NCBI GenBank assembly: GCA_027083035.1
Contig: JALWSY010000162.1
Coordinates: 1-40,949, forward strand
DNA length: 40,949 nt
Origin: Sulfurimonas sp.
GTDB taxonomy: Bacteria; Campylobacterota; Campylobacteria; Campylobacterales; Sulfurimonadaceae
Direction: 5' to 3'
The translations under genes and the position numbers were made by a program. Shown here piece by piece: positions 8,009 to 10,184 of this stretch. Numbering within the stretch: the first letter of the stretch is position 1; every line of letters begins with the position of its first letter. The notes beneath the pieces were generated by a model. It searched no databases and was not told where the DNA came from. It saw nothing but the letters and a program-made list of their open reading frames with translations.

Positions 8009-8656
8009 TTAACAATTATACAAGACATCACAAATCGTGTCAATGTCCTCAGAGAGTTTTAACACTTCTATGTCGTTATGCAGAAAAAAAGGCTCACTCA
8101 CAACAGAAAAGTCTGTATCCTCCTCTCTGCAGTTAAAAGCTAGTACCGCATCAATATTTCTATTTTGCAGGGGTTGCAGACTCAAAAGCGTATCATTGAT
8201 GCATCCAAGGGAGCAGTGCGTTACCAAGAGTGCCGTTGCATTAAAAAAGACAATCAAATCTATCATCATGAAGTTACCATCAACTGGCACATATAAACCA
8301 CCTGCCCCCTCCAAAATAAGCACATCACATACCGCCTCCATCTTCTCAATAGCACGGTTTAAAGCATCAAAATCGAGTGCCTTACCCTGTGATGCAACAT
8401 AGGGAGCCGCTGCAAGTTCATAAGAGATGGGGACAATATCCTCGATAGTAAAATCACTCAAAGCTGGATTTAACTCCCTGCAAAGTGACAAGAGAATCTC
8501 CCCATCAGGATAGACACCATCCACCACACCCGTCTCAACAAGCTTGATAGCACCAACCCGCAGCCCTTGCGATGCATAGTGACGCAACAACTGCTCTGCC
8601 GCATAAGTCTTACCAATATCTGTATTTGTCGCCGTAATAAAGATTCGTTTTTTCAT
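8009..8656 (-). CDS. bioD: dethiobiotin synthetase
   Basis: BioD uses ATP and CO2 to close the ureido ring of dethiobiotin, the penultimate step of biotin synthesis. The 215-residue protein starts with a P-loop region FITATNTDIGKTYAAEQLL; the family form is GTDTxxGKT, and here the residue after Thr-Ala-Thr is Asn. KLVETGV and LILEGAGGLYVPV match the second and third nucleotide/substrate motifs. No other bio gene is adjacent. A TATAAT ends only 6 bases before the ATG, and there is no Shine-Dalgarno sequence, which suggests a leaderless message. Confidence 0.93.
   Translation of the reverse strand: MKKRIFITATNTDIGKTYAAEQLLRHYASQGLRVGAIKLVETGVVDGVYPDGEILLSLCRELNPALSDFTIEDIVPISYELAAAPYVASQGKALDFDALNRAIEKMEAVCDVLILEGAGGLYVPVDGNFMMIDLIVFFNATALLVTHCSLGCINDTLLSLQPLQNRNIDAVLAFNCREEDTDFSVVSEPFFLHNDIEVLKLSEDIDTICDVLYNC
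8015..8020 (-). promoter_or_regulatory. pyrB -10 box inside the end of bioD
   Basis: Minus-strand TATAAT overlaps the last codons of bioD, 28 bases ahead of the pyrB ATG. It would let the pyrB-pabB-kinase run be transcribed independently of bioD. Confidence 0.5.
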
Positions 8657-8728: not shown

Positions 8729-8794
8729 CTAATAGAGACGAACTACAAATAGAAACATCAATATTAGCATGATTAGTACTAATTTTGTGTACAA
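8729..8794 (-). CDS. candidate 21-residue hydrophobic micropeptide (type I toxin-like)
   Basis: This ORF is too short for automatic calling. It starts with TTG at 8794, preceded by a perfect AAGGAG (8806-8801) at a 6-base spacing, and encodes 21 residues with Lys4, a continuous hydrophobic core LVLIMLILMFLFVV and Arg19, ending in LY. That is one membrane-spanning helix with flanking basic residues, as in Ibs, Fst or ShoB-like type I toxins; the similarity is one of character, not demonstrable homology. An alternative ATG at 8770 would give 13 residues. Its ribosome-binding site and start codon are complementary to the 5' end of the RNA predicted at 8848-8939. It could instead be a leader peptide for bioD, but its codons show no biotin-related logic. 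Confidence 0.45.
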   Translation of the reverse strand: MYTKLVLIMLILMFLFVVRLY

Positions 8795-8847
8795 GGTAAG
8801 CTCCTTTTACTGGTATCCCACCCAACACAACCCACTAAAAATTTAGC

Positions 8848-8939
8848 AAAAAAAAAGGGTAACTAGAAAAACTAGTTACCCTTTTCTCATCCCAATAACT
8901 GTGGTAATCAATCACAGTACAAAGGAGTTACCTTGTTAC
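8848..8939 (-). ncRNA. predicted ~92-nt antisense small RNA
   Basis: An extended -10 box TGTTATAAT ends at 8946, predicting a start at G8939. The RNA would carry a 5' segment complementary to the micro-ORF ribosome-binding site, a small hairpin ACTGTG/CACAGT with a 9-base loop, and a terminator with a 14-bp stem followed by nine or more T residues ending near 8848. The segment contains no convincing coding frame. It fits an antitoxin-type RNA encoded in tandem upstream of its target. Existence of the transcript is inferred from promoter and terminator only. Confidence 0.5.
8853..8885. terminator. strong bidirectional intrinsic terminator
   Basis: Arms 8857-8866 and 8872-8881 (GGGTAACTAG/CTAGTTACCC) pair perfectly around a 5-base loop, and the flanking A and T runs extend the stem to 14 bp. 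On the minus strand it is followed by nine T residues (8856-8848), on the plus strand by TTTT. It would end the small RNA that starts near 8939. Confidence 0.75.
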
Positions 8940-8945
8940 ACGAGA

Positions 8946-8951
8946 ATTATA
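8946..8951 (-). promoter_or_regulatory. -10 box of the predicted small RNA
   Basis: A perfect TATAAT preceded by TGT makes an extended -10 element (TGnTATAAT) on the minus strand. It is the best promoter match in the 8657-9140 gap and has no protein gene behind it other than the micro-ORF. Confidence 0.6.
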
Positions 8952-9050: not shown

Positions 9051-9140
9051 AAAAATAAGTATGCAGATACAAGGCGCACGCTGAGGAAGCATACGCCAGT
9101 ATATGACGAGGTGAGCAACGCAGTAGATGCGTGCTTATTT

Positions 9141-9142
<2 letters not shown>
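9051..9142. repeat. 92-base palindromic element downstream of ilvC
   Basis: The ends AAAAATAAG (9051-9059) and CTTATTTTT (9134-9142) pair perfectly, and the next bases (TATGCA against TGCGTG, then TAC against GTA) continue with G-T pairs and a two-base mismatch. Inside is a second hairpin, GGCG..GCT/AGC..CGCC, near 9072-9096. The right end overlaps the ilvC stop, so as RNA this would be a large ilvC terminator or stability structure. The GC-rich interior, with AACGCAGTA and GAGGTGAGC, is unlike the surroundings and recalls mobile REP-like palindromes. That resemblance is from memory. Confidence 0.6.

Positions 9143-10184
<1,042 letters not shown>

Follow-up and report, generated by a model that had tools for sequence, protein, structure and literature searches.

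Sequence evidence for a tandem antisense RNA and micropeptide module, a putative toxin-antitoxin system with type I-like pairing and type III-like layout, in Sulfurimonas and other Campylobacterota

A small module encoded on the minus strand of a Sulfurimonas contig is probably a toxin-antitoxin system that acts by type I-like antisense pairing and is laid out in a type III-like manner, with one promoter, an antitoxin sRNA, a terminator and a toxin gene that would be reached by read-through. The module was found in a window of 40,949 nucleotides (the whole stretch of DNA that was analyzed), in the gap between two genes which we take, from their translations, to be ilvC (9141-10163) and bioD (8009-8656). 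In the direction of transcription, its parts are an extended -10 element, the sRNA, a terminator, a G-rich leader, a Shine-Dalgarno sequence (SD), a short open reading frame (ORF) and a hairpin. The features are listed below.

8954-8946, minus strand: extended -10 element TGTTATAAT, seen in the sequence; promoter element of the predicted sRNA
8941-8921, minus strand: arm A, complementary over 20 bp (RNAduplex) to the SD region and the ORF start codon; covarying
8939-8848, minus strand: predicted antitoxin sRNA of about 92 nt, its 5' end placed from the -10 element
8918-8898, minus strand: sRNA hairpin ACTGTG-ATTGATTAC-CACAGT, whose loop TGATTA (8910-8905) is complementary to that of the mRNA 3' hairpin
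8897-8892, minus strand: arm C, TATTGG, predicted to form a duplex with the leader sequence CCAGTA (8813-8808)
8885-8848, minus strand: intrinsic terminator (14-bp stem and T9) between the sRNA and the putative toxin ORF, found by repeat search
8846-8835, minus strand: small T-rich hairpin CTAAA...TTTAG directly 3' of T9, identified by comparison by eye
8834-8816, minus strand: conserved G-rich leader TGGGTTGTGTTGGGTGGGA, seen in copies found by BLAST and not selected by motif
8813-8808, minus strand: arm C', leader sequence CCAGTA, target of arm C by duplex prediction
8807-8787, minus strand: arm A', containing the SD AAGGAG (8806-8801) and the TTG (8794-8792), target of arm A (RNAduplex)
8794-8729, minus strand: micro-ORF MYTKLVLIMLILMFLFVVRLY (from the translation), 21 aa, TTG start, predicted membrane peptide and putative toxin
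8781-8770, minus strand: 5' half of a long-distance pairing of the mRNA, TAGTACTAATCA, within the ORF (repeat search, 12 nt, 100%)
8723-8701, minus strand: 3' hairpin of the putative toxin mRNA, whose loop TAATCA (8714-8709) matches the sRNA hairpin loop (loop comparison)
8701-8690, minus strand: 3' half of the long-distance pairing, TGATTAGTACTA (repeat search, 12 nt, 100%)

An earlier note on this DNA had described the extended -10 element, an RNA of about 92 nt ending at a 14-bp terminator, and a micro-ORF on the same strand with the sRNA first, and each of these parts is present in the order given. The terminator arms (8885-8872 and 8866-8853) form 14 bp with 100% complementarity, T9 corresponds to 8856-8848, and a folding z-score of -5.3 was obtained for the predicted sRNA region. 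The first two bases of arm A lie upstream of the predicted sRNA 5' end. The T-rich hairpin after T9 (8846-8835) is found in the majority of the copies of the module described below, not in every one. The G-rich leader (GGGTTGTGTTGGGTGGGA at 8816-8834) ranks with the best-conserved transcribed segments and is a partner in none of the contacts found. No tandem repeats were detected in the sRNA by the repeat search of the window, and no T-run follows the 3' hairpin of the putative toxin mRNA in the window. An imperfect inverted repeat of 20 nt (80%) lies at 9051-9142, just downstream of ilvC. The possibility that the ORF is a leader peptide of bioD was rejected, as bioD has its own GCTATAAT just upstream and the flanking genes vary among sites.

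The pairing between the sRNA and the start of the micro-ORF was analyzed by duplex prediction. The repeat search had returned the two arms as a 22-nt repeat with 77% match (8915-8936 and 8791-8812). With RNAduplex, arm A alone (8941-8921) pairs with 8807-8787 over 20 bp, with one bulge on each side, at -27.1 kcal/mol; the pairing over AAGGAG and TTG proposed in the earlier note was thus recovered, the 25 complementary positions counted there being slightly generous. The SD and the start codon are both covered, and the complementarity stops just past the start codon. The whole sRNA body reached -32.3 kcal/mol with the leader, a value that was attained by none of 2000 dinucleotide shuffles of the body (mean -13.3, best -26.3 kcal/mol).

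In order to follow the arms across the family, multiple alignments of 58 loci were made with MAFFT and RNAalifold, and no consensus pair was obtained. Because the arms differ in length and sequence, cognate and non-cognate duplexes were compared instead. For this purpose we used 62 non-redundant loci, for which a parsed ORF was required and near-duplicates were removed at 80% similarity, a cut that reduces, and does not abolish, their relatedness by descent. The sRNA/leader duplex had a mean of -24.7 kcal/mol for cognate and -12.1 kcal/mol for non-cognate pairs, and the own leader was ranked first of the 62 for 47 sRNAs; locus L022 showed no cognate preference (-11.7, rank 19). The earlier note had raised the prospect of homologues whose arms diverge without compensating changes, and the outcome in these 62 loci favours pairing. 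A second set, from other clades and Campylobacter plasmids and obtained by other searches, gave -27.7 kcal/mol for cognate and -20.4 kcal/mol for mismatched pairs, the latter raised by inclusion of the entire G-rich leader in these hand-cut sequences, and the cognate partner was first of 16 in 12 cases; L145 in this second set is similar to L099 in the first, and L153, in which two copies are joined, was left out.

The same behaviour can be observed at a single site. In eight loci, including the window, the module neighbours an IlvC that shares 87-92% identity with that of the window, and a BioD homologue is found on the opposite flank in three of the seven others. The arms at this site read CAAGGTAACTCC/GGAGCTTACCTTG in the window and CAAAATAATTC/GAATTGTTTTG in L118, and are different again in L087. 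Despite such large changes, the arm A duplex is kept in all eight loci (eight species; -13 to -30 kcal/mol), and when the eight sRNAs were compared with all eight partners, each had its strongest duplex with its own partner, or one within 1 kcal/mol of the strongest. Two of these loci (L051 and L128) encode a peptide of another subfamily (...GYFTQL/GYLTQL), and it thus seems that a complete module was exchanged at this site. Among four copies that share a genome bin, no cross-pairing is predicted (own partners -22.4, foreign ones -10.1). The complementarity to the SD and start codon is therefore cognate-specific in the 62 loci, and occlusion of the initiation region by the sRNA is predicted. 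It could be argued that the complementarity arose by chance, or that the module is a decaying repeat element without function, as the ORF is lost in L018, in the first copy of L177, in the middle copy of L180, in L184 and in L185; in view of the 62-locus cognate test and the compensated turnover at the single syntenic (ilvC) site, we consider this explanation negligible.

Two further contacts between the sRNA and the message were predicted, where the earlier note had proposed a single one. Arm C, located between the sRNA hairpin and the terminator, has its partner in the leader, immediately 5' of the SD. This pairing comprises 6 bp in the window and is longer in other copies, is present in all eight ilvC-site loci and in Campylobacter plasmid copies, and has changed on both sides together between two close C. 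jejuni plasmid types (L170 and L173). The third contact would join the loop of the sRNA hairpin to that of the mRNA 3' hairpin. The longest Watson-Crick run between these loops averaged 5.1 for own, 2.9 for foreign and 2.8 for shuffled pairs, and runs of at least 6 were found in 31 of 62 own pairs vs 7.8% of foreign and 1.0% of shuffled ones. The hairpins were picked by a simple stem scorer, and the choice of the sRNA loop hairpin, three mRNA loops and the start codons of two loci were set by hand while viewing the data. The loop pair types switch freely (TAACTA/TAGTTA, TGGTTA/TAACCA, TCGTTA/TAACGA, CTCTAC/GTAGAG), with full reversals and the palindrome AGCT among them; in some copies the match is 4 bp long or was not found. 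Within the mRNA itself, pairing of the ORF start with the 3' end is predicted in the window and several subfamilies (mean -10.3 vs -6.4) and is absent from the GYLTKL subfamily.

Copies of the module in Sulfurimonas were found by a DNA search of 60 related genomes. Additionally, contigs were scanned with a pattern consisting of T9-G, a spacer, GGGTGGGA and an SD; the conservation of T9 and GGGTGGGA in this set is partly by construction, and the arms, loops, -10 element and peptide lie outside the pattern. The scan returned 105 loci, of which about 82 were kept, the other 23, judged by reading the sequences, being from other phyla and lacking the parts of the module. The 82 loci come from Sulfurimonas, Sulfurospirillum, Helicobacter, Helicobacteraceae, Aliarcobacter, Campylobacterales and similar groups, and from one metagenome-assembled genome labelled Desulfurellales; together with eight copies from the first DNA search they make up the 90 parsed loci. 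Terminator stems average 12 bp and are never shorter than 7 bp, and the tandem order, sRNA and then ORF, was seen in every copy examined. A covariance model built from the MAFFT/RNAalifold alignment (R1), which uses sequence only and also matches tsf terminators, found matches in 42 of 397 genomes of the phylum (12 of 68 genera), a count that includes partial matches and so overstates full modules, and in 69 of 135 genomes of the genus, likewise inflated by partial matches such as the tsf terminator, the inflation arising at weak E-values. The genome of the window contains two full modules, on contigs C162 (the window) and C183 (L002), and its third match, on C189, is the tsf terminator. The tail of the module, T9-GCYAAATTTTT, also follows ordinary terminators such as that of tsf in the genus (L003, L011, L012, L181, L182), and in L183 and L186 a sequence that resembles, by eye, a piece of 5S rRNA comes directly after the T9 of an sRNA-like copy.

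Mobile elements were also searched. BLASTN of the window module against plasmids and phages gave no match, and the Campylobacter plasmid copies were reached solely via the peptide of the Helicobacter branch (30-31 aa, ...LFREEIRK...), which matches 21 Campylobacter plasmid records. Loci L170-L174, on plasmids of Campylobacter jejuni, coli and fetus, show the same order of promoter, sRNA, T9 and leader; their peptide is un-annotated or a "hypothetical protein" and lies near conjugation genes, antisense to them, which suggests a role in plasmid maintenance. The matched plasmids are of 25-176 kb, and among those listed no accession was recognised as pVir. Full-looking modules are also found on IMG/VR contigs (L162, L165, L166, L168, L169), of which at least two correspond to Helicobacter sequences (L130 and L067). 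No Rfam family reached its gathering score and none matched in the window, the best weak match obtained being DapZ with 25 bits vs 56. A literature search for Sulfurimonas together with type I toxin-antitoxin systems, with subscription papers mostly outside its reach, returned nothing. The family is apparently undescribed, CjpT/CjrA having been considered from published mentions. The concerted change of each RNA with the peptide message it belongs to suggests a widespread toxin-antitoxin family, un-named and unusual in its tandem order.

The peptide was analyzed in the 90 parsed loci, 86 of which contain a short ORF of hydrophobic character at the expected position; it is absent in L018, L041, L053 and L125. 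The start codon is often TTG or GTG. The peptides are mostly of 18-22 aa (range 18-33 aa) with a mean GRAVY of 1.93, and a membrane-spanning stretch is predicted from this hydrophobicity. Family-wide, codon position 2 is the most conserved. Among the ilvC-site orthologues, substitutions in the ORF are distributed 91/68/93 over the three codon positions, a weak coding test in which the third position is barely favoured, and overlapping RNA constraint could produce this pattern. Searches of Pfam and NCBIfam with seven peptides gave no match up to E = 10, such models detecting very short peptides poorly. The identification of the micropeptide as a toxin is our inference. In the first copy of L177, the middle copy of L180, L184 and L185, all or some of the promoter, the sRNA and T9 are kept and the ORF is lost or broken, which suggests that these are orphan antitoxin-like sRNAs.

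It is important to establish whether the message has a promoter of its own, as the earlier note had assumed by placing a separate mRNA start near 8830. In the 62 loci, the upstream -10 site is located 86-111 nt (mean 94) upstream of T9, and its extended -10 score, a simple measure of our own that does not cover non-standard promoters, averages 12.9 of a maximum of 13.5 and reaches at least 12 in 90% of loci. The best -10 between terminator and start codon averages 9.2 vs 9.8 in shuffles, and 1.6% reach 12. From terminator to start codon, T9, the G-rich motif and the SD stand out in the per-column information, and a TATAAT does not. Some copies read T9-GTGGG, leaving no room for a -10 element. 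A sigma-54 start of the mRNA was also considered, as T9-GC resembles a -12 element, and was rejected by eye because the -24 GG is absent in the window. The lack of a conserved -10 element between terminator and start codon suggests that transcription running through the sRNA terminator is the probable source of the toxin message; a dedicated promoter for the message is most likely lacking, and TGTTATAAT would be the promoter element of the whole module and not just of the sRNA. With two independent promoters, the module would be a type I system in which the sRNA starts at 8939, the mRNA starts near 8830 and regulation is in trans only. The pairing evidence fits such an arrangement equally well, and in the window TGCTAAATT is plausibly placed with a score of 11.0 (shuffles, mean 9.8); a -10 departing from the consensus could still serve the mRNA, TGCTAAATT most of all. 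However, TGCTAAATT is not conserved, the family has no conserved -10 at this place while the upstream one is near-perfect, and in L050, L070, L074, L100 and L108 T9 is directly abutted by the G-rich leader, and we regard two promoters as rather unlikely. Thus the tandem antisense RNA directed at the start of a toxic-looking micropeptide, as proposed in the earlier note, fits the data, and its separate mRNA start finds no support.

A read-through transcript would contain both arms and their targets. In the predicted folds, the SD and start codon have an unpaired probability of 0.40 in an mRNA starting after T9 and of 0.22 in the read-through RNA, which is 256 nt long and folds with z = -9.7. 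The read-through RNA should thus silence itself, and a processing step must be assumed. As every contact is possible within one molecule, and in view of this strong folding, the module could alternatively be a purely cis-acting RNA switch, with 5' arms that sequester their own SD, a terminator that acts as attenuator and a peptide that is perhaps regulatory. Nevertheless, a terminator with a long T-run between arm and target predicts an abundant short RNA, the genes flanking the module vary among sites, and the lack of cross-pairing between copies of the same genome is expected for action in trans and unneeded in cis. We therefore consider a purely cis-acting switch improbable.

The favoured reading, a type I-like antitoxin RNA followed by a read-through toxin, suggests the following course of events. 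One sigma-70-type promoter would give the antitoxin sRNA of about 92 nt, usually ending at the strong terminator and, because this terminator looks strong, made in excess. Rare read-through would give the toxin message, with leader, SD, membrane peptide of about 20 aa and 3' hairpin. The sRNA in trans, together with its cis copy in the read-through RNA, may cover the leader, SD and start codon with its two arms and bring its hairpin loop into contact with that of the mRNA 3' hairpin, and translation would thereby be blocked. Toxin would be made once the sRNA pool drops or cleavage removes the cis copy; as the cis fold would be largely silent, given the accessibilities above, cleavage would be needed before translation. 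Possible triggers are altered termination, or sRNA decay once the locus is lost (the plasmid copies sit among conjugation genes).

Known systems share some of these features. In the unconventional type I loci TisB/IstR, ShoB/OhsC and ZorO/OrzO, divergently encoded sRNAs pair with the mRNA over 18-21 nt (PMC3919570). As in these loci, a separate sRNA gene adjoins a gene for a small hydrophobic peptide and the pairing is limited; unlike in them, the two follow one another on the same strand, separated by a terminator, and the predicted contacts number three, one of them with the mRNA 3' hairpin. In AapA/IsoA of Helicobacter pylori, the aapA1 mRNA has a 5'-3' long-distance pairing and makes kissing-loop contacts with the antitoxin RNA (PMC8167048). 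The present family is likewise from Campylobacterota, with an mRNA 5'-3' pairing predicted in the window and several subfamilies but not in the GYLTKL subfamily, and a predicted loop-loop contact, whereas IsoA is a cis antisense RNA and here promoter, terminator and ORF are all on the minus strand without overlap. IbsC of Escherichia coli is a largely hydrophobic peptide of 19 aa (PMC8309996), similar in size and character to the peptides of 18-21 aa here, but Sib is an antisense RNA overlapping the ibs coding region (PMC3919570) and here the sRNA complementarity ends right after the start codon. CjrA/CjpT, likewise of Campylobacterota, is described as a type I system whose antitoxin is an RNA (PMC10470494, PMC7826846). 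In type III systems of the ToxIN kind, one promoter precedes an antitoxin RNA and an intrinsic terminator, and the toxin is expressed by infrequent read-through (PMC8167048). This layout is matched here at the level of sequence, where the score statistics favour the absence of a second -10 element and a single promoter is predicted, whereas the type III RNA consists of tandem repeats that bind an endonuclease and here the RNA is complementary to the mRNA of a hydrophobic peptide of about 20 aa. Parallel orientation is mentioned among adjacent type I antitoxins in a review (PMC8167048), and we do not claim that the tandem order by itself is unheard of.

We give about even credence to the broader view that these modules, phylum-wide, join type I chemistry (an antisense RNA against the mRNA of a membrane peptide) with type III genetics (read-through), with cross-talk-free recognition through three contacts. 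If this is true, each toxin message would bear its own antitoxin in cis, the efficiency of the terminator would set the toxin:antitoxin ratio, and release would require either a processing step or the disappearance of the sRNA. Recognition through three contacts would evolve fast and prevent cross-talk of co-resident copies, and the many copies that do not cross-pair offer a natural series for the study of RNA pairing specificity. An un-annotated module, missed by gene finders because its ORF has about 20 codons and often a TTG or GTG start, would be present in as many as half of the Sulfurimonas genomes sampled, in numerous relatives from other families of Campylobacterota and on Campylobacter plasmids. 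The boundary between type I and type III systems would thereby be blurred.
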